From positions 1-64,000 of the IMG/VR virus record IMGVR_UViG_3300026488_000013: a DNA stretch of 64,000 nucleotides. One strand, 5' to 3'. Source of the stretch: a virus. The notes beneath the pieces were generated by a model that saw only the letters and a list, made by a program, of their open reading frames with translations, did no database searches and was not told the origin of the DNA. Of this stretch, positions 5,399 through 39,411 are shown piece after piece; within the stretch, counting starts at the first letter, position 1, and the number at the start of each line of letters is the position of its first letter. The position numbers and the translations under genes were made by a program.

Positions 5399-5503
5399 GG
5401 TTAAAACCTCCCACTTTTGTTTTTAACATTTATTAATATCCATAATAAATTATATATACGAAGGAAAAAATCAAAGGGAAAGAAATTAAATTAATTATTG
5501 TTT

Positions 5504-6384: not shown

Positions 6385-6437
6385 CTTAATTATTATATTT
6401 ATTCCATAAATCAATTTTAATATTAGAAGAATGGATT

Positions 6438-6447
6438 TATGGAAATA
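6438..6447 (+). promoter_or_regulatory. Putative promoter TATGGAAATA for csx3
   Basis: Variant of the window's TAYGGATAAT motif, 30 bases before the csx3 ATG and followed by an AAGGAGG ribosome site. It suggests csx3 is transcribed on its own, against the direction of the host intron. Confidence 0.4.
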
Positions 6448-6476
6448 AAGAAATAAAAAAATTAAGGAGGTTGGAA

Positions 6477-6764: not shown

Positions 6765-6832
6765 CTTTTACTCTTTTTTTATTTTTCTTCTCACGATGGC
6801 ATAACTTAAATAGTCCTTTTATTTTATTTTCT

Positions 6833-7155: not shown

Positions 7156-7431
7156 AATCTTCCTCTGAGGCAGAGCCCGGCGTTTCGTCCCGCCGTTATT
7201 GCCCATGACGGGACTACGGCTTAACGCCTAGTCTCTGAACCTTCCCCATAGGAGCTTTTAAAACTCCCTTAGGGGCTTGGCTGCGGGTTGTCCCCTTGAC
7301 TCCCCAACTTTTTACCATACCGGCAGCCATTACGCTACCGCCAGACAGGTATTTCCACCTGTCCTTGGTATCGGGAAGTTTTTGAGGAGTTTCCCGCAGT
7401 TAGCCGGGTTTAACGACGGCGACCAAAGGTT

Positions 7432-11682: not shown

Positions 11683-11705
11683 TTTCTCACCACTCCTTTT
11701 CGTAA

Positions 11706-11775
11706 GTTTAGGCCGTCCGGGCGGCCCTACCGCCCGTAAGGTGGGTGGGCCCCTCTTTTAAGAGGGGAAATTAGC
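11706..11775. repeat. GC-rich multi-hairpin insert of unknown type
   Basis: Three adjacent inverted repeats in about 70 bases: TAGGCCGTCC/GGGCGGCCCTA, then ACCGCCCGT...GGTGGGTGG, then CCCCTCTTTTAAGAGGGG. Composition is unlike the flanking AT-rich genes. It separates the genes 10828-11682 and 11789-12490 (both minus). It may be another IS-derived remnant or an intergenic RNA element, and it could also act as a terminator for the upstream operon. Confidence 0.4.
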
Positions 11776-11788
11776 CTGCAATATTAAA

Positions 11789-12490
11789 CTAGAAAAATAA
11801 CGGATTTGAAATAGTTGTTTGGCGGGACAATTCACTAATTATCTGCTGTTTTAATTGTTGTCCTTGTTGTATTAACAACTCTGCATTCGTCTGTATTTGG
11901 CCTATTGGTGTAGATAGTTGTTGGAATTTGGAACGGATATTTCCCAATAAAATTAAAATATCCGCATAACAGAAAGGTTTGAACCATCTGTAATATACTT
12001 CCGTTGGGATTGTTTGGGGAGATGTATGAGTTACTTTTAATTCTAAAAGAGCTGGCAAATATTTTTCTACTTCGGAAGAACTTATATTAAAAACTACCCT
12101 GTTAGAAGAGTTTTTATCTAATATTGGATATATTGGTGGATTTGTATTGGAGGTATCATTAAACCAAACGGAAATGACCGTCCCTATCGAGGAATCAAAT
12201 AGAGATGAACTATAATTGTCTGAGCTCGTATTAATCCTATGATACCACTCATATATATCTATTATCTCGAAATTCTCATCCTCAGGTATAGGAATTTCAT
12301 ATATGCCTAATTTATTATCCACAACGCAAGACCTATCTAAAATAACCCTATACCTGCGAGGAGCCCATATCGAAAATTCCTTTATTGTATGATTTTGTAG
12401 GTGTGTTAACATTTCAGCATCAGATAATTCTATTTCCTGATTAGTAAAATAGCTCTTAATGTAATTCAATATATCATTCCACGACTTCAT
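11789..12490 (-). CDS. Probable virion or neck-type structural protein, 233 aa
   Basis: The N-terminal segment (MKSWNDILNYIKSYF, then IELSDAEMLTHLQNHTIKEFSIWAPRRYRVI) resembles a family of phage neck or tail-completion proteins that start with a short helical region and a conserved YxP/WAP motif. I hold this only loosely. The middle is beta-rich, with low-complexity Ser/Asn (SSDNYSSSLFDSS). Residues about 165-215 hold YYRWFKPFCYADILILLGNIRSKF and a Gln-rich coiled region (LIQQGQQLKQQI). The gene overlaps the stop of the upstream exonuclease gene by one base (TAATG), so the two are translationally coupled. It could instead be a non-virion protein. Confidence 0.45.
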   Translation of the reverse strand: MKSWNDILNYIKSYFTNQEIELSDAEMLTHLQNHTIKEFSIWAPRRYRVILDRSCVVDNKLGIYEIPIPEDENFEIIDIYEWYHRINTSSDNYSSSLFDSSIGTVISVWFNDTSNTNPPIYPILDKNSSNRVVFNISSSEVEKYLPALLELKVTHTSPQTIPTEVYYRWFKPFCYADILILLGNIRSKFQQLSTPIGQIQTNAELLIQQGQQLKQQIISELSRQTTISNPLFF

Positions 12491-13476
12491 TATATCAGTT
12501 TTTCGATTTTATTCTTTAAATAAGAATTAACCCTTCTATTCGAAATTATCGTTTCGAAATCTACCAATTTAAAATTTTTTAAAATTAATTCTTTATATTT
12601 TTTTATTTCATCGATTTTTGAAAATATAATATTCCAATCCGGCTCTTTTAGTTCATTATCAGTCAAATTTTTCATTAATAAATTATAAAATGTTTTATAT
12701 CCAATTCTGGGAACAGATGGTATATTGTCAGACTTATCACCGCCCACAGATAAAAAATAACTTATCCAGTTAGAAACTAAATTTATTCTTTCATTTTTCC
12801 GCTTTTTCTTAATTAATTCATCTATTGCATTTTCGTTGTTAATTATTTTAGTTACGAATTTTCCGTTTTCTCTCTTATTAATAATTTGAATGATATTGTG
12901 CGGTGAAATTTTCATATTCTGGAACAAATCTTTGTCCGTAGATAAAATAATATTTAAATTCTCCGTGTCCAATAAATTTAAAAAGTTATTTTTTAAAAAA
13001 TAATACGGAATTATATCTGCTTCCTCATATTCTAAATAAACCGAAATAATATCATCGAATTTATTTAATTCTAATAATTTTTCAAAGGTATAATTTTTTA
13101 AATACTGAATTCCGTGTTTTAAATCTATTGAAAAATATTTATTTTTGGTTATTATGCCATATTCGTTTCTGTTTGATTTATATTCTGGATAAATTTCTAA
13201 ATGATACGAATAAACTCCTTTATCGTAAAAAAGAATAAATAACGGGTCATATTTTTTAAATTTGTTTTTTAACCATTCAATACAATTTATTATTTCATCG
13301 AACCATACATTTTTATAATTTAACAAAAAGGAATTGGAAATTATCTTGGAGGAGTATATGCCACGGCTAATGGAAGAAATATCCAAGAAAAAAGTTATAG
13401 TTTTAAACCTATTATTTTTTATTAATTCGAAAATAGGATTTAAATAAAAATAATACCGGACTATCTCATTTCTCAT
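12490..13476 (-). CDS. 5'-3' exonuclease / flap endonuclease (RNase H-like, FEN family)
   Basis: The protein shows the acidic and helix-hairpin-helix signatures of FEN/T4 Rnh nucleases in order. They are TFFLDISSISR (first Asp, about residue 31), EEADIIPYYF (about 150, the ExAD motif), LSTDKDLFQNM (about 180, TxDxD), and SVGGDKSDNIPSVPRIG (about 250, GDxSDNIPGVxGIG). These bind two metal ions and the DNA. Expected role is removal of RNA primers or 5' flaps during phage replication. The N-terminal 25 residues before the first Asp are longer than usual. The gene overlaps the HD gene upstream by 11 bases and the gene downstream by 1 base, so the three are one translational unit. Confidence 0.85.
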   Translation of the reverse strand: MRNEIVRYYFYLNPIFELIKNNRFKTITFFLDISSISRGIYSSKIISNSFLLNYKNVWFDEIINCIEWLKNKFKKYDPLFILFYDKGVYSYHLEIYPEYKSNRNEYGIITKNKYFSIDLKHGIQYLKNYTFEKLLELNKFDDIISVYLEYEEADIIPYYFLKNNFLNLLDTENLNIILSTDKDLFQNMKISPHNIIQIINKRENGKFVTKIINNENAIDELIKKKRKNERINLVSNWISYFLSVGGDKSDNIPSVPRIGYKTFYNLLMKNLTDNELKEPDWNIIFSKIDEIKKYKELILKNFKLVDFETIISNRRVNSYLKNKIEKLI

Positions 13477-14083
13477 CTTTTTTACTAGAATTATCTATAA
13501 TCCAATCTTTGGCTATTGAGGCAAAATCCGCCGCTAGGAGCAATAAAACCCAAGGAAAATATTTAGTTTCAAATAATTCTCCGCCACGTTGAATAAATGC
13601 ATCCTTATCGAAAGGTTTCAATTTTTCTTCAAAATTAATATGATGCCACCTAATTCCCAACTTAATTATCTGGTATATATCAGAATTTAGAAAATTCTTA
13701 AATTCATCTTTATCTTTATACTCTTTTTCAAATTCCGGTATAAATTCCTTTTCAAAATATTCGAGAGACCATTTTGCGTGGTCGTGTTGGTCTTTGCCAA
13801 AAAGTTTTCCATAATCATGAGCCAAACCTATTACTTTGAACAACCTGTAGAGATTTATATCTTTTATACCCAAAGTATTAAAAGCAATATCTGAAACTTC
13901 TAACGAATGTTCTAACAACCCGAATTTATTGGTATGATGTTGCCACAATCCTTCTACCTGTGCCGGACGCAGGTTTTCTTTATGTCTACGAAATAATTTC
14001 TCATACATCGCTTTTAAAATATTGCTATATCTATCCAACTCGCTTTTTATATCGTCGTAAGTTAAATATTTTTTGTTCTTCAT
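13466..14083 (-). CDS. HD-domain phosphohydrolase, 205 aa
   Basis: The ATG at 14083 follows AAAGGAG. The HD signature is complete. GLLEHSLEVSDIAF (about residues 54-67) supplies the first His, GLAHDYGKLF (about 87-96) supplies the HD pair and a Lys, then come KLGIRWHH (about 145) and LLLAADFASIAKDW (about 185), with a late Asp. HD proteins hydrolyse phosphate esters, commonly nucleotides, cyclic nucleotides or nucleic acids with metal ions. The spacing resembles the HD domains of TraI-type relaxases and Cas3''-like proteins more than that of dNTPases. The substrate cannot be told from sequence. It overlaps the exonuclease gene and so probably acts in replication or in nucleotide or signal breakdown. 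Confidence 0.8.
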   Translation of the reverse strand: MKNKKYLTYDDIKSELDRYSNILKAMYEKLFRRHKENLRPAQVEGLWQHHTNKFGLLEHSLEVSDIAFNTLGIKDINLYRLFKVIGLAHDYGKLFGKDQHDHAKWSLEYFEKEFIPEFEKEYKDKDEFKNFLNSDIYQIIKLGIRWHHINFEEKLKPFDKDAFIQRGGELFETKYFPWVLLLLAADFASIAKDWIIDNSSKKDEK

Positions 14084-14189
14084 TCTTAAACTCCTTTCTA
14101 ATTAACGTTAAGCATAAGAAAAAAAATAAAGAAAAACATTTGAAACAGAAAATTGTATAAAATAGGTTTATTTATCTTATTTACTCTCC

Positions 14190-14924
14190 CTATTCTAACT
14201 CTAACTCGTCATTATCGTCACTGTCTTCATCTATTTCAAATTCGTCATCATCGATTATATCGCTATCCTTGTTGATATTTCTATTTTTGAGCGGCTTATG
14301 ACGCAAATTCTCTTCTAGTTCTTCATCTTCATCAATATCTGGTATCATATCTTCCGACTTCTTAGTATTTTTTATTTTTGTTATTTTTACACTATCATTA
14401 TCGATTTTCTTTTCTTTCTCTTTCCTAGGTCTGCCTCTTCTCCTTTTAGGTTTTTCTTCTATAGTCTCTGTATTGTTTTCAACTTCTATATCAGCCTTTC
14501 TATCTTTTTTATCGGATTTCCGTGCCGTTTTACTATCGACACATTCATCTCCAAATACACATAACATCCTTTCTATATCATCTTCCTCAGCTATTCCTTC
14601 GCCCTCTACATATATTTTTTTTAATTCTTCTATAATCTCTCTTATTATTTCTCTTTGATGTTTTATTAGCTCCTCAAATAATTCTTTATCCTCAGGATTA
14701 TTTTTCCTTATAACAACAGGTATCACTATATATTTGTCCTTATGATATTTTTCTAAATTTTCCAGGAATCCACAATCTTTTTTTATATTGTATGTTCCAA
14801 ATACATGCTTAAGTATTTCTTCCCTTTCGTTATCCAATTCAAATTCGGATATAAATTTTAGAATGTTTTTTATAAATGCCTTAACAACCTTTTCACAAGT
14901 TGTCTCAATTTTTTTTCTAGCCAT
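14190..14924 (-). CDS. AT-hook protein with acidic tail, 244 aa
   Basis: Helical N-terminal domain (residues 1-120) without recognised fold. Then comes a basic AT-hook (KPKRRRGRPRKEKEKK, about 158-173, core GRP flanked by Arg/Lys), which binds the minor groove of AT-rich DNA. The very acidic C-terminus (DEDEELEEN, DDDEFEIDEDSDDNDELELE) is typical of proteins that interact with histone-like or polymerase partners. It starts a divergent block and faces the 1-kb repeat-bearing non-coding region at 14925-15987. A TATGGATAAT motif lies 8 bases before the ATG. A role in binding that region (origin or promoter) is an inference. Confidence 0.65.
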   Translation of the reverse strand: MARKKIETTCEKVVKAFIKNILKFISEFELDNEREEILKHVFGTYNIKKDCGFLENLEKYHKDKYIVIPVVIRKNNPEDKELFEELIKHQREIIREIIEELKKIYVEGEGIAEEDDIERMLCVFGDECVDSKTARKSDKKDRKADIEVENNTETIEEKPKRRRGRPRKEKEKKIDNDSVKITKIKNTKKSEDMIPDIDEDEELEENLRHKPLKNRNINKDSDIIDDDEFEIDEDSDDNDELELE

Positions 14925-14932
14925 ACTGATTG

Positions 14933-14942
14933 ATTATCCATA
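14933..14942 (-). promoter_or_regulatory. Putative phage promoter motif TATGGATAAT
   Basis: Perfect match, 8 bases upstream of the ATG at 14924. Confidence 0.5.
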
Positions 14943-15969
14943 AATATTTTTAAATTAAAAAATTAATACTCTGGTTTTCATAACTTCTCTATTTATTTTT
15001 TTCAAATAATTTATTTTACAATTGAAAAAATAATTTTGATTATCTTATAATTTCGATTTTAAAAAATAAAGTAAAAGAAATATTAATTTTTTTTGTTTAA
15101 AATATTTTTAACTTAATTTTTTTAAACTTTTTAAATCGATTTTTTATTTTAAATTTTGAAAAATAAAAACTCTTTATTTTTCAAGAAAAATAGAAAATAT
15201 ATTTTTCCACATAATTCTTAAATAAATGTTCTTTCAGAAATTAATTTATTCCACAAATATGTATCTTATATAATAGGTATCTCTTTTATTTATATCTTTA
15301 TCTGATGGATGTATAATTCCATTTGTTTTAGATATTAAATGTAGCTTGTTATTAATTTTTTTTCAAATAAATTTTCTTGAAAAGTAATATTTCTCTCTCT
15401 CTTAAAAAACTTTTATTCCAGTTGAATATATTGCTTCATATAATTATTTACAAAACTTTCTAAGTTAAAAGTAATAAATGTTATTCTTATACAAAGTACT
15501 CTCTTTTATAGTAGTTATATCCGATGGAAGTATATAATTAGTTGTGTGAAAACAAAATACTGTTTTATATAATATTTGCTTGTGATTTTGTAGATAATTA
15601 TTAAGTTATTTTAAATTTTTATTCACGTGCTATCTAATAATGATTTTAAATTATGGTTTTAAAAATAAATTATTTTTTTATTAAAAAAATTTCTGTATAG
15701 CCTTTCAAAAGACATTTAAATTTATTTTTTTAAATATTGTATCAATTGAAAAAATGGTCCTTTTTTATTGTTTAAAAAACTTTTAATTTTTGTTAAATCC
15801 GTAATATGAAACTTTTAGCTGTTAAACAGATTTAATAAAGTATAATACATTCTCCTATGTATAGTATTTTTCTTTTTATAAAGATTATATCCGATGGAAG
15901 TATATTAATGTTTTAGAGTATATACAATAGTATTTGTGTGATAAAAACGATTTACATGTGTAATGCTAA
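14943..15969. repeat. Non-coding divergent region with three related repeat units
   Basis: No credible reading frame in about 1 kb of extremely AT-rich DNA between divergent genes. Three units share a core that reads TTATATCYGATGGAWGTATA: 15208-15340, 15481-15545 and 15860-15915. The first unit is a near copy (about 130 bases, including CACATAATTCTTAAATAAAT and the terminal AATTCCATTTGTTT) of 47752-47878, 32 kb away. Conservation in non-coding DNA points to a replication origin, a packaging or partition site, a binding site, or a small RNA family. Confidence 0.55.
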
Positions 15970-15979
15970 TATGGATAAT
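15970..15979 (+). promoter_or_regulatory. Putative phage promoter motif TATGGATAAT
   Basis: Perfect match, 8 bases before the ATG at 15988 with no ribosome binding site between. Confidence 0.5.
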
Positions 15980-15987
15980 AGATTTGT

Positions 15988-17379
15988 ATGAACTTTATAA
16001 ATGTGGTAAGGAAAAAGAAATTTGAAGATTATCAAAAATACCACAATGGAAAGATTACGATAGAAAATTTTAGAGAGCATGATTATAGAAGAATGGATGA
16101 ATATATTGTAAATGTGTTTGAAGATTTCCAAAATTTAACCTTAAATGGCGGCGGAAGAACGATAGAATTTGAAATAATGGATTGGTGGAAATCGGATAAA
16201 TATTTTAGCCCATATGTGGATAAAACAGTAGTGGTTGAGTATGTCATAAAAGCTAATATCAAAACCAAATCACCCAAGACTGGAGAAATAAAATCTAATA
16301 ATGAAGCTACTCTTAAAATATTGGTTCCCAAATTAATGAATAAAAAATTATTTTATCTCTATGATAACATTTATATTCCAGTATTATATATGTTCGACAA
16401 TTTTGTCCGGATATATAAGAAAGGAATAAGAATAGATTTACCATTATACGGAATAAATTTAGATTTTGAGTCTAACAAGGTAACTTTACGGAATACAAAA
16501 TATAACCGCCCGCTAAATTTGACGGTATTTTTATACTTCATATTCGATGCTCATAAAAGCGAAAAAAACTATAGAATTTTTAAAAAAATAATGTTTAAAA
16601 ATTATGCAAAATATATAAATAACTCTAAGAAAGTTTCGCAACTTATAAGAAATTTTGATAAAAATTTAAATAAATGGGTCGAAAATGAAATAGAATATTT
16701 CAGATATTATTATATGATGAATTATCTTTGGATGGTAGATGAAGATTTGAAAATATTTGACGTAAAAATGGATTTTGGGAAAATGTTGAAAAAAATAATA
16801 GATACTTATCTATTAGGTTTTAGGATAAATAAGGAGTCGTTATATAGCGAGCTCCCTAAAGACATTGTTGATGGTGGGATTAAAAAAATACTTTTTTATC
16901 TAATTAAAAATTACATAATTACGGATGAAGATATAAATCAAGATTTTATAAACAATGTTAATTTGAAAAATAGAAGAATATTGTTTCTGGAAAATATGGT
17001 GCGTCCGCTTTATTGGAACTTGTTAAGATATATAAACGCTGTGAGCAGAGATACTAAATACGGATTTGAAATAGCGGATATAATTTATGATGGAAGCATT
17101 GTAAATGAATTCGTTTCTTCTCAGATAAAAAGATACAAAGGAAAATACTTATGGGATTTTCCTACCCCATATTGTGGTGTGCGAGCAGCCCAAATATTAA
17201 ATTATGATGGGGACGAAGATAAAATAAATTTAGATACAAGATTATTGCATGATTCTCAGTATAACATAATATGTCCTATTGCTACATCCAGTTCGCACCC
17301 GGGAATAGTTTTACATACTGTGCCGGAAACACCCCTAGATAAATATGGCCATTTTGTGGAAAAATTTGAAAAATATTAA
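15988..17379 (+). CDS. Probable RNA polymerase beta subunit, N-terminal part
   Basis: 463 residues. The C-terminal 45 residues align by eye with the conserved beta segment around the rifampicin pocket and fork: RLLHDSQYNIICPIATSSSHPGIV followed by LDKYGHFVEKF. The bacterial pattern is [23 protein letters not shown] then NEYGFIETP. Upstream, VRPLYWNLLRYINAVSRDTKYG and FVSSQIKRYKGKYLWDF fit the region before it. The N-terminal 350 residues are divergent, as in phiKZ/AR9 beta-N proteins. It would need a separate beta C-terminal subunit, not present in this window. A TATGGATAAT motif precedes the ATG by a few bases. The call depends on the C-terminal block; a non-RNAP protein is the alternative. 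Confidence 0.6.
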   Translation: MNFINVVRKKKFEDYQKYHNGKITIENFREHDYRRMDEYIVNVFEDFQNLTLNGGGRTIEFEIMDWWKSDKYFSPYVDKTVVVEYVIKANIKTKSPKTGEIKSNNEATLKILVPKLMNKKLFYLYDNIYIPVLYMFDNFVRIYKKGIRIDLPLYGINLDFESNKVTLRNTKYNRPLNLTVFLYFIFDAHKSEKNYRIFKKIMFKNYAKYINNSKKVSQLIRNFDKNLNKWVENEIEYFRYYYMMNYLWMVDEDLKIFDVKMDFGKMLKKIIDTYLLGFRINKESLYSELPKDIVDGGIKKILFYLIKNYIITDEDINQDFINNVNLKNRRILFLENMVRPLYWNLLRYINAVSRDTKYGFEIADIIYDGSIVNEFVSSQIKRYKGKYLWDFPTPYCGVRAAQILNYDGDEDKINLDTRLLHDSQYNIICPIATSSSHPGIVLHTVPETPLDKYGHFVEKFEKY

Positions 17380-17436
17380 TTAGGCATATATAAACGTTTC
17401 CTTCCATATTAATTTTTGAAAGTTAAAGAAAAAGAA

Positions 17437-17446
17437 TATGGATAAT
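17437..17446 (+). promoter_or_regulatory. Putative phage promoter motif TATGGATAAT
   Basis: Perfect match, 8 bases before the ATG at 17455. Confidence 0.5.
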
Positions 17447-17454
17447 TAAAAAGT

Positions 17455-17661
17455 ATGAGGAAAAATGAGGTTTTTATGAGCTTGTGGGAAGCGATTGAAG
17501 ACTATTGTGAACGACATAATGCTCATCCATATGAGGTGAAATACATTATTCATAAAAAACCATGGTTCGATGGCGATACATACCAAATAAAAATTGGAAT
17601 AGAAAAAGACGGAGAAATATTCCTCCAAGATATAGAATATTATGAAGTTGAAGAGATTTGA
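17455..17661 (+). CDS. Small hypothetical protein, 68 aa
   Basis: Acidic soluble protein with a short N-terminal helix (SLWEAIEDYCERHN) and a beta-rich remainder (KYIIHKKPWFDGDTYQIKIGIEKDGEIFLQDIEYYEVEEI). I do not recognise it. Support for it being real: the promoter-like motif directly upstream, sensible composition, and position after the beta-N gene on the same strand. A weak T-rich hairpin (AGAG...CTCT then TTTTTT) follows its stop codon and may terminate transcription. Confidence 0.55.
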   Translation: MRKNEVFMSLWEAIEDYCERHNAHPYEVKYIIHKKPWFDGDTYQIKIGIEKDGEIFLQDIEYYEVEEI

Positions 17662-17807
17662 TTCTCTCTTTTTTATTTTTTAATATAACATAACGAAAAA
17701 AGAAATAACTTTAATTAAACTAAATGTAAAAGTATATAAAAGTTCGGCAAGTATGGTTGGCTCGGTCAAAAGAAATTCTGCAGATAAGTTGTCAAATTCA
17801 TTGGTAA

Positions 17808-18149
17808 TTATTTTTTATTTATCGATTGTGTTTTTTTGTGTTTATAAATTTTATATCCAATATATGTCAAAAAACCTAATATTGATAGTGTTGCTATCAA
17901 TATTAAATTGTTATTATAGTTCCTTTCGTTGTCTTTTTCACTATTTGTTGAATTATTAGTGTTTCCAGTAGTTCCCTTTGCATGCATATGATGTATAGCT
18001 ATGTTTTTATTGTTATCGTATGATATGTTTTCTTCTGTTATATGAGTATGATAGCTATGGTGACTATGGTGTCCGCCGTGTCCACCTTTTGCATAAGTAA
18101 TACCTATACATATGGAAAATAATGTTGCAACAACTGTCAATTTTTTCAT
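17808..18149 (-). CDS. Histidine-rich membrane-anchored protein with signal peptide, 113 aa
   Basis: Residues 1-20 are a clear Sec signal peptide (MKK, hydrophobic core, cleavage after TYA). A His cluster follows, with about ten histidines between residues 24 and 56 (GHGGHHSHHSYHTH, IHHMH), then a Ser/Asn/Thr linker. A transmembrane helix (about 81-99, NLILIATLSILGFLTYIGY) and a basic tail complete it. It would sit in the envelope with the His-rich part outside the cytoplasm, probably binding Zn, Ni or Cu. This is unusual for a phage. Possible roles are metal capture, superinfection exclusion or lysis control. The plus-strand reading frame over the same bases (17753-17959) looks like a shadow. 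Confidence 0.65.
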   Translation of the reverse strand: MKKLTVVATLFSICIGITYAKGGHGGHHSHHSYHTHITEENISYDNNKNIAIHHMHAKGTTGNTNNSTNSEKDNERNYNNNLILIATLSILGFLTYIGYKIYKHKKTQSINKK

Positions 18150-18226
18150 GCCTATCTCATATATATAAAAAAACGCATTAATATTAAATTTCTCTATTTA
18201 ATAATCTTCTAAAATCTTCTTCTGAA

Positions 18227-18550
18227 TTTATAGAAAATCTGCGGGGTAAAACCCCATATCTATGATGCGAGGATATAGCCTGCCCCACCGTTAGGCGGTG
18301 GACAAATTTGAAATTTTACATATAATTAAAATCTTAACATACCCGCCGATAGCGAGCCTAAATAACAAAAATAAGCCCGTTATACCACCGACCTAAGGCG
18401 GGTATGCAGGCTGAAAGTAGCTCCACTATCCCGCTGTATGGTGGGATAGGCAGGAGTAGGGGCGGTGTGAACCCGCCCGTGGTGGTAAGGCACCGCTTGG
18501 ACGGTGCAAACCCACCCGAAGCCTCGCATCATAGATGCGAGGCAGTTCAC
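18227..18550 (+). mobile_element. Structured RNA transposable element (HEARO/omega-RNA-like), copy 2
   Basis: A 324-base partner of 9602-9921 in the same orientation, with the same order of stems and invariant single-stranded blocks (GACAAATTTGAAATTTT, AAGTAGCTCCACTA, GTGGTGGTAAGGCACC, GTGCAAACCCACCCGAAGC). Stem bases covary between the copies. It ends CATAGATGCGAGGCAGTTCAC, 52 bases before the ATG of the next plus-strand gene. It has no reading frame of its own. Confidence 0.6.
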
Positions 18551-18602
18551 TTCCGGTCATATCAATTTTTCGACATAAAAATTTTATCTGAAAAAAACCG
18601 TT

Positions 18603-19265
18603 ATGGCACACTATTTAATTGGTGGAGTTAGCACTTTACACGCATCTAAGATTAAAGACATTTCTGACCTAATTGATGTTGATAAATATGGTTTTTATAA
18701 ATACAAAAACCATATTAAATTATATTTGGAGGACAAATATGCTAAAGGCGAGCCATTTTATTTAATTCCGTCTTTAACCAAGCTTAATTGTAGCAATAAT
18801 CTCGTTAAAATTTTTAATAAAAAAGTAAAATCTGGCACAGACGAATACAACATCGTTATATATGTATATAACATCGACAGAAATTTCATTGATAATTTTT
18901 ACAAAACTTATCTCACTTGTATTTATAAAACAATAGAAATTTTGCAAAGCAAATTAAATGATGAAAAGGTTATAAATTTATACCATGTTGTTGAAAATGC
19001 ATATAAATTTTTTATTCATCATATTGTTAACAACCGTAAATATCAATCAATAATATTGGATTATACTGATATGAATGCTTTTTCTATGGATGAAGATTAT
19101 AAGCTAAGAAGTGTTAAAGAGGAGTTTTGTAATCAACCCGGACACATCGAAAACTTAATATTGAAGTTAATAAAAGATTGTCAGGAAAAATATGATACGA
19201 TAGAAAATTTCGAGAAAAATACAAACATCTTATTTAAGTTTTTGTCTGGCCAGAGCAAACTATGA
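18603..19265 (+). CDS. Hypothetical protein, 220 aa
   Basis: I do not recognise the family. Mixed alpha/beta content with a tyrosine- and isoleucine-rich centre (EYNIVIYVYNIDRNFIDNFYKTYL) and a helical second half (KTIEILQSKLNDEKVINLYHVVENAYKFFIHHIV). It has one HH pair and no membrane segment. No ribosome site or promoter motif is clear upstream of the ATG; the structured element 18227-18550 ends 52 bases away and may provide the leader. A 25-codon frame overlapping its stop (ATGAG at about 19266) is too short to call. Confidence 0.6.
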   Translation: MAHYLIGGVSTLHASKIKDISDLIDVDKYGFYKYKNHIKLYLEDKYAKGEPFYLIPSLTKLNCSNNLVKIFNKKVKSGTDEYNIVIYVYNIDRNFIDNFYKTYLTCIYKTIEILQSKLNDEKVINLYHVVENAYKFFIHHIVNNRKYQSIILDYTDMNAFSMDEDYKLRSVKEEFCNQPGHIENLILKLIKDCQEKYDTIENFEKNTNILFKFLSGQSKL

Positions 19266-19491
19266 GATGATATTGAAAGAAATCATTACCAGTATTGATA
19301 AGATATACAAATTAATAGGTTATAGCATTAACGAAGTTATTTAATTGTTTTTGCTTTATAGAGAATTCTCAAAATGGAACTGGTTTAATGGGAGCGAGCC
19401 TATTTTCCCCAAAAATTTGATTGTTTTTTGCCACGAAGGTCTGAGAATGCATTAATAATCAGAATAAAAGAAAATAAAAAATAAAGTAAAT

Positions 19492-27336: not shown

Positions 27337-29052
27337 TTAAATAGGAAACTTCCATTCATCTTGGTTGAAAGATAGTTCCGATAATTTGGGACCTATTGGT
27401 GATTGTCTTCTTTTAAATTCATATTTTAGAATTCTTTTGTTTATACTAGTTATTCTTCTTTCTTTTATTAACATAATTAAATGTCTATCTAAAGTTTCAT
27501 ATGTTGCACCAAGTTGTTCTTCGTCACTTATGTCATTTACAAATAATTCGGCAGTAGGTTTTCTTTTTATTATAAATCTAGGCACACCTAAATACTCGGC
27601 TAATCCAAATACTTCAGTTTTTAATATATCTTTGAGCGGGGCATATCCACCTTCGCTATCCCCACCTAAAGTATAATACCCATATGCCAATTCAGTTTTA
27701 TTACTACATGTTAGTAATATAGCATTCAATTCGTTGGCTTTTGTTAGTAAGAAATTAGCTCTTAATCTCGCTTGCAAGTTTGCCAACGCAATTATTTCAT
27801 TTATGTTAAACAGGTTTTTGGAATTATTAAATATTTCCGTTAAATCGACGGTCTCAATACTAACACCTGAATCCTTTTTTATAATTTCTATCGCTCTATA
27901 AGTTTCATCTTTAGTAAATGGTCTTATAGGCAGAAAATATGCATGTATGTTAATGTTAGGAATATCTTTTATTAGATATAAAACGGTAGCACTATCTATT
28001 CCTCCGGATATACCGATAATAACGTCTTTAAATCCTGTTTTCATCAAATATGTTTCTATATTGTTTCTAATAACTCTAGCGTATTGTTCATATTTCGTTT
28101 GTTTAGTATTTATAGTATAGGAGTTTAGCTTAGATATATATTCACTTCTAATTATATCATCGTTTGTAGTATCATATGTTTCATAACAATACCCCATTAC
28201 AGGTTTATTGGGTTTAACATCTTTTATTAATTCGTCCACATTTTTTACAATCTTTTCATATTCGCTATTTTGAATATTTAAAATTTTACTCCGATAAATC
28301 GAATTCTTATATAAAGCTAAATATTTTATATTTTCAATCACATTTCCATCTTCGGTTATAAAGAAACTATTTCCATCAAATGTCACCTCGTCGAAAGTGC
28401 CACTATAATTAACATAGAGTAAAGGAACGTTAACGTCTTTAACGTATTCAATAAACATTTTAATTTTATTTTCAAGCTTCCCATATTCATACGGGCTGGC
28501 ATTTAAAGAAATTATTAAGTCAATTTTTCCCTCGCTATTTATCATTTCTTTCCAATTTTCGAAATACCATCCATCTTCACAGATTAATACCCCGATGTTA
28601 AAACCTTTGATATTCAATACCCCATATGGTTTACCATCATGAGACGAAAAGTATCTTTTCTCATTAAATACTCCATAATTCGGTAGGTATTTTTTTACAC
28701 CAAGTATTTTATTGCTTCTTAACAACACGGACGCATTAACTAGGGCGCCGTTATTTAAAAATAACGGAAGAGTTGTTAAAACTTCAGTTTTATGATTATC
28801 ATATAAAAATTTTAATACTTCATCTCTGAACTTTTTATTAAGTTTTTCCACCTCCTCGGGATACAGATATATATCCTTTATATAGTATCCAGTACTTGCC
28901 AATTCGGGTAAAACAACTAAATCGGGTTTATAACAAACATAATCAGTTATAGTAACTCCACCAAATTTAAATACTGGATGAAATTTTGGGATGAAAATTT
29001 CCAATGTGTTATTAGTTGCCTTGGTTTTAGTTCCAACCTTGTATTCGACCAT
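27337..29052 (-). CDS. nadE: Glutamine-dependent NAD+ synthetase
   Basis: 571 residues, two-domain form. The N-terminal carbon-nitrogen hydrolase (glutaminase) domain has its triad: Glu in VLPELASTGY (about residue 50), Lys in GVKKYLPNYGVFNEKRYF (about 120), and Cys in GVLICEDGWYFE (about 158). The C-terminal ATP-pyrophosphatase synthetase domain has the P-loop IIGISGGIDSATVLYL (about 340-355) and CSNKTELAYGYYTLGGDSEGGYAPLKDI, the NaAD/ammonia site. It converts nicotinate adenine dinucleotide plus glutamine and ATP to NAD+. The ATG at 29052 follows GGAGG. It is the last of four NAD genes in a row; it completes the route from nicotinamide. Confidence 0.93.
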   Translation of the reverse strand: MVEYKVGTKTKATNNTLEIFIPKFHPVFKFGGVTITDYVCYKPDLVVLPELASTGYYIKDIYLYPEEVEKLNKKFRDEVLKFLYDNHKTEVLTTLPLFLNNGALVNASVLLRSNKILGVKKYLPNYGVFNEKRYFSSHDGKPYGVLNIKGFNIGVLICEDGWYFENWKEMINSEGKIDLIISLNASPYEYGKLENKIKMFIEYVKDVNVPLLYVNYSGTFDEVTFDGNSFFITEDGNVIENIKYLALYKNSIYRSKILNIQNSEYEKIVKNVDELIKDVKPNKPVMGYCYETYDTTNDDIIRSEYISKLNSYTINTKQTKYEQYARVIRNNIETYLMKTGFKDVIIGISGGIDSATVLYLIKDIPNINIHAYFLPIRPFTKDETYRAIEIIKKDSGVSIETVDLTEIFNNSKNLFNINEIIALANLQARLRANFLLTKANELNAILLTCSNKTELAYGYYTLGGDSEGGYAPLKDILKTEVFGLAEYLGVPRFIIKRKPTAELFVNDISDEEQLGATYETLDRHLIMLIKERRITSINKRILKYEFKRRQSPIGPKLSELSFNQDEWKFPI

Positions 29053-29097
29053 CCTACAATACCTCCATTCGAAAAAGTAAATTAGAGAAAGATATAT

Positions 29098-29643
29098 TTA
29101 AAAAATTATTTCAAATTGCTTATCAAATTTATCCTTCAATTTTTTATACAATTTTCTTGCCTCATTGTCATTAATACTTTTGATTTTATCAATATGAAGG
29201 AATACTTTGTATCCGTTTATTAGTCCTTGTAATGCAGTCCAATAAACACAGTAATCCCCGGCAACACCCACAATATGAAGTTCTTTTATTCCTCTCAATT
29301 TTAAAATCTTATCCAAACACGGCTCTCCTTCAAATGCACCATAATTCTCAAAATCATACATCCCTTTTTTAATAAATACACTATCTGCAGGTTTAGGTAT
29401 ATCCACAACGATTTCGGCTCCCTTGGTATTCTGAATACAATGTTCTGGCCATTGGTTAAAAATTTTACTATCTTTCTTATGCCAATCTTGTGTATAAATA
29501 ATCAGCTGATTTTCATTGACAAACTGATGGATAAGGTTATTAATAGGTTCTATTAAATTTTCTGCGTTTAAAACATAAAGCGAACCATTAGGATTGACAA
29601 AATCATACTGCATATCGACAACGATTAAAGCTTTATCGAACAT
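29098..29643 (-). CDS. pncA: Nicotinamidase (pyrazinamidase family)
   Basis: 181 residues with the full isochorismatase-fold signature. Catalytic Asp10 lies in LIVVDMQYDF; metal ligands Asp53, His55 and His68 lie in YTQDWHKKDSKIFNQWPEHC. Lys92 or Lys93 lies in FIKKGMYDFEN, and nucleophile Cys132 lies in VGVAGDYCVYWTA with the preceding cis-peptide AG. It hydrolyses nicotinamide to nicotinate and ammonia. The start ATG follows GGAGGTG. Gaps to neighbours are 22 bases (upstream) and 45 bases (downstream). Nicotinamide is the product released by NAD-cleaving defence enzymes, so this enzyme would start the rebuilding route. Confidence 0.93.
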   Translation of the reverse strand: MFDKALIVVDMQYDFVNPNGSLYVLNAENLIEPINNLIHQFVNENQLIIYTQDWHKKDSKIFNQWPEHCIQNTKGAEIVVDIPKPADSVFIKKGMYDFENYGAFEGEPCLDKILKLRGIKELHIVGVAGDYCVYWTALQGLINGYKVFLHIDKIKSINDNEARKLYKKLKDKFDKQFEIIF

Positions 29644-29665
29644 TTTACATCACCTCCGTTTATTA

Positions 29666-30640
29666 TTAAAAATTTTCTTCGACAAATTTAATCAGTTTAA
29701 AATGGGACTCGAATCTAAATAGTCTTTTATTTTTGTCATAAATGTTTTTCAATTCTTTGAAACTAAATTTTAATATGTTTGATACCTCATTCACATCCTT
29801 AAAATTACCCATATTTGCTGAATTATCTACATATACCAAATACGGAATTACGGTAACCATATTTATCTCGACAAAAGGAGCCAGTTGGTTATGTTCTATA
29901 ATATCATTTCTACACAAACCCAATTCTTCTTCCAGTTCCTTAAATAACACCTTTTCTATTGAATGCTCATCTATAAAGCCTCCGGGCAATGCAATTGTAT
30001 TTGTCGGTTTGTGTTTTATCATTATATATTCGCCGGTATCTATATTCTTAACTACCGCCAAAACAGCACTCAGAGCAACATTATCAGGTAATGTTATATA
30101 TCTCGGATTTTTTATAAGTTTTTCTTTTATTCTATTTCTTATTAAAGTTCCACTATAAAAATGTTTAAATTCATCATTTATTTCAATACAATTATATTCC
30201 AAGATTATTTCGTCTCCAAATATTTTTGTAACTTCTTTATTATTCCTCTTTATCACAATTATGTTTTTAGTTCTTAGAACATCTTTAAGTCTATCGAAAT
30301 TCTTCCATTGATTAATCGTATTGTATGAATCACTACCAAACAGAATGTCTGTTACATAACTTTTATTTTTGATTAAATGATAAAAACTTTCATCATAAGA
30401 TACATCAACATGTACCTTATCTAAAATTTCGGATTTATACCCTTCAACCATATCATAGATTAAATTTCTAATAAATTCGGGGGCAAACATCCTTTTGTGA
30501 TTCCTATATTTATAATTATGAATCACTATTTCTATATTATCATATTTAAATTTATTTATAGCGGAAAATAAAATACAAAGATGAGATAAATGAAAAGGGT
30601 CAAAAGTTCCGGCAAACAGCAGTGTTCTTTCATTTCCCAT
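29666..30640 (-). CDS. nadM: Bifunctional nicotinate/nicotinamide mononucleotide adenylyltransferase with Nudix domain
   Basis: 324 residues, NadM-Nudix architecture as in Synechocystis and Francisella enzymes. Residues 10-20 AGTFDPFHLSH are the nucleotidyltransferase GxFxPxHxxH motif; YSGTLIRNRI (about 165-174) is the ISSTxxR-type motif. The Nudix box lies at about 220-242 (LPGGFIDEHSIEK...KELEEELGL). It keeps the REUxEExGU-type metal Glu residues but is one residue shorter at the first Glu, so hydrolase activity is uncertain. It would adenylate NaMN to NaAD; the Nudix half may hydrolyse ADP-ribose. A similar fusion is known in vibriophage KVP40. Good ribosome site AAAGGAGG. Confidence 0.88.
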   Translation of the reverse strand: MGNERTLLFAGTFDPFHLSHLCILFSAINKFKYDNIEIVIHNYKYRNHKRMFAPEFIRNLIYDMVEGYKSEILDKVHVDVSYDESFYHLIKNKSYVTDILFGSDSYNTINQWKNFDRLKDVLRTKNIIVIKRNNKEVTKIFGDEIILEYNCIEINDEFKHFYSGTLIRNRIKEKLIKNPRYITLPDNVALSAVLAVVKNIDTGEYIMIKHKPTNTIALPGGFIDEHSIEKVLFKELEEELGLCRNDIIEHNQLAPFVEINMVTVIPYLVYVDNSANMGNFKDVNEVSNILKFSFKELKNIYDKNKRLFRFESHFKLIKFVEENF

Positions 30641-30659
30641 TCTAAAACCTCCTTTCTTT

Positions 30660-31745
30660 TTAATACACAGCAGTATCGTTGGGAAAGGGACTTAATTTAG
30701 GTTTCAATTTGTTTTCGATATAATCATAGTATTTAACTCCCTCTATTTGTTTTTTACCAGGAGCTAATTTTTTGACAGGTATCCATTTTCCATTTTTATA
30801 AATTCCTGTGAGTTTGTATACAATGGACAATGGCTTTGTATTGTTAACTATTTGTGTTCCTCCCGCAATACCTATTACTTTGTTCCGATATTCTTCCTCC
30901 AAATTTTCACCTACATATTTCACTTTGTCAATATCATAATCGCCAGATAAAATATATTTAACATCTATTAGAGTATTTATTTTCGCTATCTCTTTAATAA
31001 GTTCAACGTGGTCACCAGAATCTAATCTAATCTTTACGCCTCTAATCTTATTAGGGTCAAGAACAGGTAATAGTTTTTTCAACAGCACTATAGTGTCTAT
31101 AGTATCTGGTAAGATTGTATCTGTCAGGTTATTTTCTAATAAATACTTCCATAATTGAACCTCATTTTCATACTCACCGCTGAATAAACCATATTGAATG
31201 AATGCATGAGGCAATGTTCCCGTAATTTTTTCACTATATTTATCATACAGCATCATATTAGAAGTCAAATACCCTAATTTTGCAGCTATTTCCGAAATTC
31301 TGTATGCTAATTTAATATCGGGTGCTCGCCTTAAACCAAATTCTAATACTTTAGCACGTGGGAAATATTTTTTAATCACATTTTTAAATTCCAATAGTCG
31401 TGTAGTATAAAATAGTTCTCTTTGTGTTACATTCAATAATAAACTTTCCAATACTATAGGTTCTAATCCATGTCCAATTACTTGAATAATAGGTTGAAAT
31501 TCTTTTACCTCCATCAATCCTTTATTTTTATATTTTCCCAATATCCGAATTTCGAACTTATCATTCACATCATAAAAATATTTATTTAGAGTTTCTTCTA
31601 TTACAGTCGGAAAATCTGGCGATGTGTAATATTTTCCTTTGCGTATAAAGAGTGTGAAGCAAGTTTTGTATTGATTTTGAAACACAACCTTAGAAATATT
31701 CCTTGTGAACATATGATAGAAATCCATTGGATTGTATTGGTTCAT
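30660..31745 (-). CDS. pncB: Nicotinate phosphoribosyltransferase
   Basis: 361 residues, close in size to archaeal-type NAPRTases. Conserved blocks: REL-FYTTR near residue 110, LEFGLRRAPD (about 133-142, phosphoribosyl site), and TGTLPHAFIQYG (about 176, active-site His). RGVKIRLDSGDHVEL (about 230) and GIAGGTQIVNNTKPLSIVYKL (about 295) follow. It makes NaMN from nicotinate and PRPP. The ATG at 31745 has no ribosome site but is 8 bases from a TATGGATAAT motif, so this is probably the first gene of the operon. A nicotinamide phosphoribosyltransferase is the alternative, but the RRAPD block and the presence of pncA and nadE favour nicotinate. Confidence 0.85.
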   Translation of the reverse strand: MNQYNPMDFYHMFTRNISKVVFQNQYKTCFTLFIRKGKYYTSPDFPTVIEETLNKYFYDVNDKFEIRILGKYKNKGLMEVKEFQPIIQVIGHGLEPIVLESLLLNVTQRELFYTTRLLEFKNVIKKYFPRAKVLEFGLRRAPDIKLAYRISEIAAKLGYLTSNMMLYDKYSEKITGTLPHAFIQYGLFSGEYENEVQLWKYLLENNLTDTILPDTIDTIVLLKKLLPVLDPNKIRGVKIRLDSGDHVELIKEIAKINTLIDVKYILSGDYDIDKVKYVGENLEEEYRNKVIGIAGGTQIVNNTKPLSIVYKLTGIYKNGKWIPVKKLAPGKKQIEGVKYYDYIENKLKPKLSPFPNDTAVY

Positions 31746-31753
31746 ACTTATTC

Positions 31754-31763
31754 ATTATCCATA
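31754..31763 (-). promoter_or_regulatory. Putative promoter of the NAD salvage operon, TATGGATAAT
   Basis: Perfect motif match directly before pncB. No other candidate lies inside the four-gene run, which suggests a single transcript. Confidence 0.5.
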
Positions 31764-35325: not shown

Positions 35326-37341
35326 TTATTTAAAAAATTCTATCCACAGGGAAATTGTTATAACAATTGGTTTATTACTTTTGAAATACTCTAGTATTTC
35401 ATCTTTACTTATCTTGACAAATTTACCGTTAATATATAAATGCGGCGCCGCCTTTGCATCAAAAATAACATTAAAATTTGGGATTATGGGTTTTAAATTA
35501 TTCAACCTTCCGGATATTGCAAACTTAATATTCGGTTTAGAAATTATTTCTTTTAGTAATTCTTTAATCTTTCTAATACACTTTGTATATATGTTGTTAA
35601 CAATTAAATCTTTCCTAATTGTTTGTCTTACAATAGTTGCAGTATCATTTTCAATATTAACCCGAACTATATAAGACATTGCTAAATTTCCGCCTTTATC
35701 ATATCCATTTAATACATACAAATTTCTCCCCTTTTTAAAGAACGCACCGGTTAGATTATTAACTTCATGGAATTTAATCATATCCTCAGACGCTTCGTAT
35801 TCACCAATCTCAAAATACAATTCATCACATGAGATTATTTTGAATAATTCGGATAACAATTTCTGATTTTTAGTTTCTTTTAAAATATACCGTATAATCA
35901 AATTTTTCCATAATTCCTTTTTATGTTCATTTTTCCATTCAGCATCAAATATTTTAAATGTTCGCATTTTATTTTTTCTTTCGAATTTTAGTTTAACATC
36001 AGCTCTCTTTAACAATGTTTCTAAAACTTCAATTGTATTGGCGCCGTATTTATCCGCCCACAGTGTTGAGTGCCAAAATATACTATCATATTCTACTGCC
36101 AATTTTAATTCGGGAATGTATAAATCCCAGCTATAAGTTTTATTCCCAATAACAAATTTCTTTTCCGAGACGAATGTTAAATTAAATTGTTTTCCTATTA
36201 TTTCCTTAATAGTATCGGTTATTTCTGCAATTACTAAATTTTGTTCAACTGATTTTCCTTTAGAGATTTTTTTCATGCAAATTGGACAACCGAATAATTC
36301 CTCCGGCATGGCATTAAAAACTTTCCATTTATAAAAATTTTCCAAACTTAATGGTCTATATTTCGTATAAGTTATTCCATGGCGATTACATTTCATTTTA
36401 ACCGATTTACCATAATATCGTTTAATGTAATCTAAAATATTTTTTATATTTATAAATTTGTATCCATTTTTTAATGCATATTCATATAACAGCTTATCAA
36501 ATTTAATTAACTCATCCGCAGGAACATTATATTTATCTAACAGTTCAGAAACAATTTTCCTATGTTTTACAGAATTAACCAATTTGGGGTTGAGAACTTT
36601 GTTAGAGATTAACAATTTCTTTCTTAGTTCGATTATTTTATCGTAAGAATTTCTATTCTCTCTCATTTTGACAGATTTAATTTTTCTTATATGTTCAGAG
36701 TTATTTGGGTTATTTTCTCTAAAATATTTAGTGGTTTGTTCGATATATTTTTTATAATAATCTGGGAAAAATATTTTAACGGGATAATTTTTAATTTTCT
36801 TATAACAGCCGCCGCAGGAATAATCGAGTATATACCTGTTAAATCTAGAAATATTTCTTCCGCATATTTTACATCTATATTTTTCCTTATTTTCTATCCT
36901 ATCAATAAAAGTATCCGTAAGCATCAAATATATCAAATGTCTAACGGTGAATTTCTTGCCAGAAATAAAATTTTTTCTTATTTTTGTCAGCACTTCTCTA
37001 TTAATATTAAATTGTTTTAATATCTTTTCCAATTCGTCAATATCTAAAGCACTTAATGAATTTTTATTCGCCTCGTAATTTGAAATTTCTGGATTGATTT
37101 CTCTTTCAATAAATGAATAGTATTTTTTAAATAAAAATTTTGGCGTAATAATAAAAGCACCGCAGGTTTCACATAGAATTTTTTCTTTATTTATGAATGT
37201 ATTTCTATCAATTTTTAATTCAGCACCACAATCCCAACAACTAATTTTATAAGACATAGGGAATTTCAATTCTTTAGGATGAAGTATCTCTAACTCATCC
37301 ATTTTATTTAACTCTTTCGTCAGCTTTCTCTCTTCCACCAT
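35326..37341 (-). CDS. Homing endonuclease, Vsr-like (EDxHD type), second copy
   Basis: 671 residues. Zinc pairs: CWDC/CETC (about 35-60), CKIC/CGGC (about 155-180) and CNRHG...CPIC (about 315-355). The nuclease domain follows (about 365-480): an early Glu in SVEQNLVIAEI, YSWDLYIPELKLAVEYDSIFWHS (D...E-x-D...WH), and FKIFDAEWKNEHKKELWKN. The C-terminal third (GAFFKKGRNLYVLNGYDKGGN and on) parallels that of 1061-3133 (HGFHTGLIYLTLEDEYND), so the two are distant paralogues. It lies 124 bases after the end of the second beta' N gene, whose last codons encode the catalytic DGD. It has its own TATGGATAAT motif. Likely a free-standing homing endonuclease acting on beta' active-site DNA (inference). 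Confidence 0.7.
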   Translation of the reverse strand: MVEERKLTKELNKMDELEILHPKELKFPMSYKISCWDCGAELKIDRNTFINKEKILCETCGAFIITPKFLFKKYYSFIEREINPEISNYEANKNSLSALDIDELEKILKQFNINREVLTKIRKNFISGKKFTVRHLIYLMLTDTFIDRIENKEKYRCKICGRNISRFNRYILDYSCGGCYKKIKNYPVKIFFPDYYKKYIEQTTKYFRENNPNNSEHIRKIKSVKMRENRNSYDKIIELRKKLLISNKVLNPKLVNSVKHRKIVSELLDKYNVPADELIKFDKLLYEYALKNGYKFINIKNILDYIKRYYGKSVKMKCNRHGITYTKYRPLSLENFYKWKVFNAMPEELFGCPICMKKISKGKSVEQNLVIAEITDTIKEIIGKQFNLTFVSEKKFVIGNKTYSWDLYIPELKLAVEYDSIFWHSTLWADKYGANTIEVLETLLKRADVKLKFERKNKMRTFKIFDAEWKNEHKKELWKNLIIRYILKETKNQKLLSELFKIISCDELYFEIGEYEASEDMIKFHEVNNLTGAFFKKGRNLYVLNGYDKGGNLAMSYIVRVNIENDTATIVRQTIRKDLIVNNIYTKCIRKIKELLKEIISKPNIKFAISGRLNNLKPIIPNFNVIFDAKAAPHLYINGKFVKISKDEILEYFKSNKPIVITISLWIEFFK

Positions 37342-37349: not shown

Positions 37350-37359
37350 ATTATCCATA
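37350..37359 (-). promoter_or_regulatory. Putative phage promoter motif TATGGATAAT
   Basis: Perfect match, 8 bases before the ATG at 37341. Confidence 0.5.
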
Positions 37360-37464: not shown

Positions 37465-39411
37465 TTAATGCGGATTTAGATGTAATATGATGGAACTCAT
37501 ATCCGCAAATTCAATAATGACACGGGCTTGCGAAACGCTATCACCATCATAATCAGCGTTAAAACTTTCAACTATCAATGGGTGTATTTTTAAAGTATAA
37601 TCTTCTTTATTAGTATTTATTTTTGCATCGTAAACTATCATCGATGGCTCCCATAGAGTTGGTTGCCTATTTATAAAGGAATATAGTTTTATTCTTCCTT
37701 TATTAACATTATACGCAAACAAATCGAACAGAAATTCTATATCTTCCAATATTTGTTCATCCGTTATATCCAGCTCTTTGGGGCTTTTTGCACCATATTC
37801 TAATTCCTGATATATCAGTTTTATTAAATATGTAAAATATTTACCATTATCTTTTAATTTGATTTTATTTAATTTCTTAATCATCGATTTCGGTGCGACA
37901 GGTTTCTGAACTATTACATCACATGGAGTAAACTTTTTATATTTAAATAGTGTATATAATCTTCTAAGAAATATCAAAAATTCCATTTTGAATATTTGTC
38001 TGGCTGTATAATATGAAACCAATATTTCATATGGTTTAACCTCTAATGTTGGAGTAATTACATTTCTGGCGGAAAAATCTATAGTTTTTCCTATTAGAAA
38101 CTGTCTCACCAAACCTTCCTTTTTACCTAATTCGGAATCTAATAATTTTGAGACATATTTTATATACCATTGTTGAAGTAAATTAACTTGTCGTTCCTGC
38201 GTAAATATTTCTGGTATGGTTAGATTTTCTAAGTTTTTATCCAGATATTCTTTATTTTCTTGACAATATTCAAATAATGTATAGACGCCGCCGTGGTGTG
38301 CGTATCTGTAATAATACTCTGAATATTGATTATAAGTTATAAACGGTTTATAAATAAACCTATCAAATTGGCTAGAAATTTGTTCGGTATTTGTTTCATG
38401 ATTTTTTTTACCATCTGAAGTGGGAATGTTTATAGATACAGATAACTTATGAGGATTATCTGTTAATTTCTCAAATTTCTCATTCATTATCACTATTTGT
38501 GTTAATATTCTATCATAATCACTTCTATATAATTCGTCCCCCACTATCATAAATTTTCTAAGCTCCGCAGTTATCACCGGAATAATTATAGTTATCGAAT
38601 TTATCAAGTGTGTAGGGTATTTAAATTTTAGAATATATTCGTTAAAAATTTCTTCGTTAGACAATATCGCATATATCAATGTATATAAACCGAACGCAGG
38701 TTTTGATAAAACATAGGTGTCCTTATAATATTCCCAAGTATATTTTTCATTATCTTTAATTAGGTCATATTGTAATGCAAATTCGTAAAATTTATTGAAA
38801 AAATCCTTATAACTGGTTTCTGCTATTAATTCTTCATACTTTTCCTTTATTTTATTATTTCCGCTTATTAGATAAAACTTTATTCCTTCGGGCGGCTCAA
38901 ATCTTTTCTTTTTTCTATTAAACAGCAAAAATTGATAATCTAAAATTATTTTATTCATTAATGACATAAATGTTTGTTTTCCGCCTTTTAATATTCGGTA
39001 TATCTCGCTGAGTATCAACGGATTAAATACAGGATAATTTAAATTTATAAATCCGTGATTTCTGGAGATATTTTGTTTATAATCCATTACTACGCCGCAA
39101 ACTTTGCATTTCTTTCCATATCCCCTTGTTAAACCACACAAACAAGTTTTGGAAGTAGTTCCGAATATAGACCACGAATGCAATCCTTTAGGGTTAGGTA
39201 TATTTTTACCAAATCTCTTTTCAATATTTTCTACTATTTTATCTTTGAGTGTAGGGTCTTTTATTTTCTCAAAAAACTCCAATTCATTAACATCTTCTAT
39301 TAATATCTTCGAAGATTTTATTATCTTGCTCGATTCATATTTCTTATATGGGTTAGAAAACAATGAATATAGGAGCTCTAACTTTTCCAACTTAGTTTCA
39401 AATTCCATCAT
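37465..39411 (-). CDS. RNA polymerase beta' subunit, N-terminal part (set 2), ending just after the active site
   Basis: 648 residues. The N-terminal zinc finger is intact (Cys90, Cys92, Cys102, Cys105 in CLCGLTRGYGKKCKVCG). FLIGKTIDFSARNVITPTLEVKP is the double-psi barrel segment (compare GKRVDYSGRSVI). RQPTLWEPSMIVYD matches RAPTLHRLGIQAF, and ESFNADYDGDSVS holds the perfect catalytic NADYDGD (618-624). Only 24 residues follow, and they do not resemble the usual VHVPLS continuation, so the gene may be fractured or have had its 3' end replaced. It differs from the set 1 gene (7432-9348) in keeping the zinc finger and an uninterrupted motif. A TACGGATAAT motif precedes it. Confidence 0.82.
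   Translation of the reverse strand: MMEFETKLEKLELLYSLFSNPYKKYESSKIIKSSKILIEDVNELEFFEKIKDPTLKDKIVENIEKRFGKNIPNPKGLHSWSIFGTTSKTCLCGLTRGYGKKCKVCGVVMDYKQNISRNHGFINLNYPVFNPLILSEIYRILKGGKQTFMSLMNKIILDYQFLLFNRKKKRFEPPEGIKFYLISGNNKIKEKYEELIAETSYKDFFNKFYEFALQYDLIKDNEKYTWEYYKDTYVLSKPAFGLYTLIYAILSNEEIFNEYILKFKYPTHLINSITIIIPVITAELRKFMIVGDELYRSDYDRILTQIVIMNEKFEKLTDNPHKLSVSINIPTSDGKKNHETNTEQISSQFDRFIYKPFITYNQYSEYYYRYAHHGGVYTLFEYCQENKEYLDKNLENLTIPEIFTQERQVNLLQQWYIKYVSKLLDSELGKKEGLVRQFLIGKTIDFSARNVITPTLEVKPYEILVSYYTARQIFKMEFLIFLRRLYTLFKYKKFTPCDVIVQKPVAPKSMIKKLNKIKLKDNGKYFTYLIKLIYQELEYGAKSPKELDITDEQILEDIEFLFDLFAYNVNKGRIKLYSFINRQPTLWEPSMIVYDAKINTNKEDYTLKIHPLIVESFNADYDGDSVSQARVIIEFADMSSIILHLNPH

Follow-up and report, generated by a model that had tools for sequence, protein, structure and literature searches.

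Bacteria commonly defend themselves by depleting nicotinamide adenine dinucleotide (NAD+). Among phage routes that rebuild the cofactor, just two have been tested so far. In NARP1, the enzymes Adps and Namat are used (PMC12774641), and rebuilding NAD+ from the products of NADases can defeat NADase defences (PMC12774641, PMC13232231). Surveys and work on phage KVP40 describe a NadV-NadM-NadR route. In their survey of 21,191 viral proteomes, Iyer et al. 2022 name only NadV, NadM and NadR as NAD enzymes, state that every phage with NadM has NadV, and do not use the word nicotinamidase (PMC9503650). The authors who described phage X1 list pncB, nadM, nadD, nadE and NAMPT and propose a role against NAD+ depletion; the phosphoribosyltransferase of the X1 NAD cluster is a Nampt. 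No description of a phage route from nicotinamidase to NadE was found in the literature searched, most subscription papers lying outside its reach.

We analysed the first 64 kb (hereafter the window) of the 167,050-base IMG/VR virus record IMGVR_UViG_3300026488_000013, which derives from a tailed phage and has a G+C content of 28%. The window carries four adjacent minus-strand genes, pncB, nadD-Nudix, pncA and nadE, separated by gaps of 19, 22 and 45 bases, exactly as an earlier note on this DNA had placed them. We propose, with a probability of roughly 0.6, that this operon specifies an entire NAD+ salvage route of the phage, of the deamidating (Preiss-Handler) type and probably directed against NAD-depleting defences. 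In this route, PncA would convert nicotinamide to nicotinate, PncB would combine nicotinate with phosphoribosyl pyrophosphate (PRPP) to give nicotinate mononucleotide (NaMN), the NadD domain would adenylate NaMN to nicotinate adenine dinucleotide (NaAD), and NadE would amidate NaAD to NAD+ with glutamine.

Identity of the four enzymes

The operon comprises, in the order of its predicted transcription, the following features:

31754-31763, minus strand: promoter-like motif TATGGATAAT, exact match, 8 nt before the pncB ATG
30660-31745, minus strand: pncB, predicted nicotinate phosphoribosyltransferase of the short TIGR01513/PRK09243 type, 361 aa, without Shine-Dalgarno sequence (family models, residues, AlphaFold fold match)
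29666-30640, minus strand: nadD-like predicted nicotinate-nucleotide adenylyltransferase with C-terminal Nudix domain, 324 aa, strong Shine-Dalgarno sequence AAAGGAGG
29098-29643, minus strand: pncA, predicted nicotinamidase, 181 aa, strong Shine-Dalgarno sequence GGAGGTGAT
27337-29052, minus strand: nadE, predicted glutamine-dependent NAD+ synthetase, 571 aa, strong Shine-Dalgarno sequence GGAGGT

Both sequence and predicted fold identify PncB as a putative nicotinate phosphoribosyltransferase (NAPRT). Its family matches, though weak, are specific (Pfam NAPRTase, E 5e-5; NCBIfam NAPRT PRK09243, E 4e-20, its best NCBIfam match, which lies below the curated cut-offs of the NAPRT models), and only nicotinate phosphoribosyltransferase models, with no NAMPT model, are listed among its NCBIfam matches. 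The residues typical of the family are kept (RR139-140, TSN161-163, His180, DT214-215 and DSGD242-245). The AlphaFold model (mean predicted local distance difference test score, pLDDT, 73) has the NAPRT structures 4mzy/2f7f as its top fold matches, the nearest being the Enterococcus faecalis enzyme 4mzy (E 8e-17), ahead of Nampt structures.

The second protein fuses an adenylyltransferase domain (CTP_transf_like, 2e-11; TIGR00482, 2e-11, below cut-off) to a Nudix domain (1e-5). With profiles compiled from phage NadD and NadM domains, the adenylyltransferase domain scored 46.9 bits as NadD and 16.5 bits as NadM, the best shuffled decoy reaching 13.3 bits with NadM. NCBIfam concurs, its NadD models matching at 1e-12 to 2e-11 and NadM-Nudix at only 3e-4. 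The domain, which has the motifs GTFDPFHxxH, GSD102-104, Trp112 and SGTxxR, is thus predicted to be NadD-like, that is, of the NaMN type, and the label nadM given in the earlier note has to be replaced. We also rejected an identity as a bifunctional NadM-Nudix enzyme: the fusion is present, but its N-terminal domain is NadD-like, which fits a nicotinate route better. In the Nudix box PGGFIDEHSIEKVLFKELEEELGL the three metal-binding Glu residues (KELEEE) are kept, Lys replaces Arg, and a residue is missing ahead of this Lys. The box is thus slightly more damaged than the single affected position given in the earlier note. The AlphaFold model of this protein (pLDDT 46) was too poor for inspection of the pocket.

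PncA belongs to the isochorismatase family (1e-24), and its closest solved structure is the Pyrococcus nicotinamidase 1ilw (E 1e-35). It retains the catalytic Asp10, Lys93 and Cys132 together with the metal site Asp53/His55/His68, as expected of a nicotinamidase. NadE combines an NAD synthetase domain (1e-48) with a CN_hydrolase domain (2e-11), matches PRK13981 at 1e-90, and keeps the amidase residues Glu50, Lys120 and Cys158 as well as SGGIDS at 349-354; at the family level it is a predicted glutamine-dependent NAD synthetase. The four enzyme classes and their catalytic residues support, on sequence grounds, the earlier proposal of a self-contained deamidating route running from nicotinamide through nicotinate, NaMN and NaAD to NAD+.

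Expression signals and genomic setting

The upstream motif is also a real feature of this genome. Among the 137 open reading frames (ORFs) of at least 80 aa in the record, and with up to two mismatches allowed, TA[T/C]GGATAAT is found 7-9 nt upstream of the ATG in 27 (exactly 8 nt in 23), against a mean of 1.6 and a maximum of 6 ORFs with shuffled upstream sequences. The sites include those at window positions 31754-31763, 14933-14942, 15970-15979 and 37350-37359 and about 23 more in the record. Genes preceded by the motif begin transcription units (median gap to the upstream same-strand ORF of 549 versus 63 bases) and have no Shine-Dalgarno sequence, a lack that is partly mechanical, as the motif occupies the Shine-Dalgarno position. 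To this pattern pncB conforms, while the other three genes have strong Shine-Dalgarno sites. Since the motif precedes pncB only and strong ribosome-binding sites stand before the remaining genes, the simplest reading is that the four genes would be expressed as one polycistronic message from a phage promoter, its first gene being leaderless. The TA[T/C]GGATAAT sites are likely leaderless promoters, perhaps served by the phage's own multisubunit RNA polymerase. Scans for sigma-70 promoters and terminators gave counts near those of shuffled sequences.

Elsewhere, the record encodes a terminase, a tape-measure-like protein, a UvsX-like recombinase, Thy1 and ribonucleotide reductase subunits. Its RNA polymerase beta/beta' genes are split, and a fragment of a family B DNA polymerase bears an intein signature. 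This fragment is a single 508-aa ORF (L010:15378-16904, record positions 129378-130904) in which the family B exonuclease domain is followed by an intein splicing domain. ORFs resembling HNH/homing endonucleases at window positions 1061-3148 and 35326-37341 adjoin the RNA polymerase subunit genes (3214-4467 and 37465-39411), which introns or inteins may interrupt.

Equivalent clusters in other phages

The arrangement is not unique: judging from predicted gene content, many giant phages have complete sets, Bacillus phage G among them. Single-protein scans of IMG/VR found no relatives of PncB and NadE, whose sequences are too diverged, and alignment-based scans used instead retrieved 36 viral loci for NadE and 31 for PncA. 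By family and profile searches, clusters with all four functions occur in no fewer than 12 further IMG/VR records, namely G003 (279 kb), G004 (561 kb), G011, G012, G013 (578 kb), G016 and G027, and those of loci L024 (record G009, given no weight as it may be bacterial), L137, L143, L147 and L148. About a dozen more hold three of the four functions. Several of these records clearly belong to phages, because the T4-type major capsid protein Gp23 is encoded in G004, G011, G013 and G016 among the complete-cluster records, and in five three-function records (G040, G041, G043, G044 and G046); it was found in no cellular control out of 14. Every searched record with a match to PF04095 has a single such protein, and those annotated further were NAPRT, except for the Nampt of Xanthomonas phage X1. 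The huge-phage cassettes have NadM-Nudix as their adenylyltransferase and a PncB of the Escherichia coli type (PRK05321). They contradict, and correct, the published claim that NadM in phages is always accompanied by NadV.

Equivalent sets are also carried by two cultured isolates with laboratory hosts. Bacillus phage G encodes Nudix, PncA-like, NAPRT, NadD and NadE proteins within gp273-gp283 (NAPRT, NadD and NadE scoring above curated cut-offs and PncA below), and Sinorhizobium phage Phosso encodes PncA-like, NMNAT, MutT, NAPRT and NadE proteins. Agrobacterium phage Atu_ph07 has PncA-like, PncB and NadE genes, the last distant from the other two. A 735-kb phage (LR756501) has homologues of PncA, a short NadE and PncB within 9 kb (11002-19475), and no adenylyltransferase was detected in this locus. 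In Phage Phass-1 (2861-7299), genes annotated as nicotinamidase, ribose-phosphate pyrophosphokinase and Nampt-like are adjacent and accompanied by a NadE-like ORF, possibly a mixed NARP1/deamidating set. The best NadE match in the phage collection, 'Acinetobacter phage MD-2021a' (CAKLQH020000044), was set aside, as it looks like bacterial chromosome (rpsL, tRNA and metabolic genes).

The cluster does not seem to be a mere copy of a gene order common in bacteria, as 79 of 80 bacterial NadE loci had neither PncA, PncB nor adenylyltransferase in the flanks examined (up to 6 kb, some shortened by contig ends); PncA was nearby in one, and PncB or adenylyltransferase in none. The NadE proteins of nine huge phages form one clade (SH-like approximate likelihood-ratio test, 98). 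The window NadE sits on a branch of 3.7 substitutions and cannot be placed in the phylogeny, and its common origin with the NadE of the huge-phage cassettes was not rejected (approximately unbiased test, p = 0.147). The subtypes of PncB and adenylyltransferase and the gene order differ, which speaks for separate assembly of the window and huge-phage sets or for replacement of some of their parts. Assembly of such cassettes was probably repeated across phages; NadE gives no basis for this.

Function and comparison with known systems

We favour a role in counter-defence because the pathway starts at a nicotinamidase, matching the nicotinamide that NADase defences release. Host NADases of such systems (TIR, SIR2, SEFIR) would supply the nicotinamide, and the route would let the phage keep ahead of NAD+ loss. 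The Nudix domain may split ADP-ribose, which NADases also release, into AMP and ribose-5-phosphate, and host Prs could convert the latter to the PRPP needed by PncB. A broader and more tentative idea, to which we give somewhat less than even odds, is that nicotinate cassettes assembled independently several times in giant phages constitute a third phage NAD+ reconstitution pathway, which would defeat NAD-depleting immunity by passing through NaMN and NaAD, with Nudix feeding the ADP-ribose half toward PRPP. NADases probably do not cleave NaMN and NaAD. The recurrence of a chemically distinct route in giant phages makes such a third answer directly testable.

Several observations weigh against a counter-defence role or against the enzyme assignments beneath it. 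Divergence is strong in PncB, NadD and Nudix, which share 17-25% identity with the relatives aligned; the phosphate motif of NadD reads SGT in place of SST, and the Nudix box has imperfections. Among the genes next to the operon, none was recognised as anti-defence. Many bacteria already own the nicotinate route, so phage copies could simply raise NAD+ supply.

This last point leads to the most serious competitor, though one that we consider rather unlikely: the operon would raise NAD+ for the long infection of a large, nucleotide-hungry phage (replication, ribonucleotide reduction, redox) and play no part in defence. The ribonucleotide reductase subunits and Thy1 of the same record fit such a supply strategy, and reviews interpret the NAD genes of jumbo phages in this way (PMC13282480). 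A nicotinamidase at the start, however, suggests nicotinamide coming from the cleavage of intracellular NAD+ and not de novo supply, and no NAD-dependent DNA ligase was found as a phage consumer of NAD, which weakens the explanation without removing it. That many hosts already have the route also tells against it. The phage might instead complement a host that lacks the nicotinate route or is a vitamin auxotroph, providing growth-limiting NAD+ synthesis, but we regard this as improbable given that phages infecting Bacillus megaterium and Sinorhizobium meliloti have equivalent sets, both hosts being free-living bacteria that make their own NAD+. Complementation gains some plausibility from the nicotinate/nicotinamide metabolism genes reported in phages of the reduced-genome Patescibacteriota (PMC12911398). 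Slightly less probable still is that PncA and Nudix mainly clean up nicotinamide and ADP-ribose-type signals, leaving the other enzymes a secondary role. Nudix domains have indeed been proposed to degrade ADP-ribose signals in jumbo phages (PMC7824862), but here all four synthetic steps keep their catalytic residues whereas erosion is greatest in the Nudix box, and in phage G Nudix is a separate gene.

Set beside the described systems, a predicted nicotinamide-to-NAD+ operon of counter-defence type resembles NARP1 in being a phage-encoded means of rebuilding NAD+ from nicotinamide freed by NADase defences. NARP1 uses ADP-ribose pyrophosphate and two enzymes, whereas the window route would depend on PRPP and use four enzymes via nicotinate. 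With NARP2, or NadV-NadM(-NadR), found for example in Vibrio phage KVP40, it shares PRPP-based phosphoribosyl transfer, an adenylyltransferase often joined to Nudix, and a large phage as carrier. That route is amidated (nicotinamide to nicotinamide mononucleotide to NAD+), in contrast to the nicotinamidase, NAPRT, NadD and NadE of the window. The chemistry therefore appears to differ from both described phage pathways, as the earlier note had anticipated. Adps (PRPP-synthetase-like, PF13793) had no match in the 167-kb record, possibly a fragment, and was found in 14 of 14 cellular controls; Nampt (NadV) was not found in the same possibly partial record, whose only PF04095 protein is the NAPRT, by a search that does detect the Nampt of phage X1.

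The bacterial Preiss-Handler pathway (PncA, PncB, NadD, NadE) carries out the same reactions, with genes that rarely adjoin nadE; to our knowledge, bacterial NadD is not normally fused to Nudix. The huge T4-like cassettes (G004, G011, G013, G016 and others) also have four same-strand genes of the same functions with a glutamine-dependent NadE, but they carry NadM-Nudix instead of NadD-Nudix and a PRK05321 PncB, in the order NadM-Nudix, PncB, PncA, NadE. The phage G cluster likewise groups the same four steps with a Nudix protein in a giant phage, and has a TIGR01513-type PncB and a NadD-type adenylyltransferase; it differs in its separate Nudix gene, its short NH3-dependent NadE and its interspersed genes (e.g., the KptA-like gp280).

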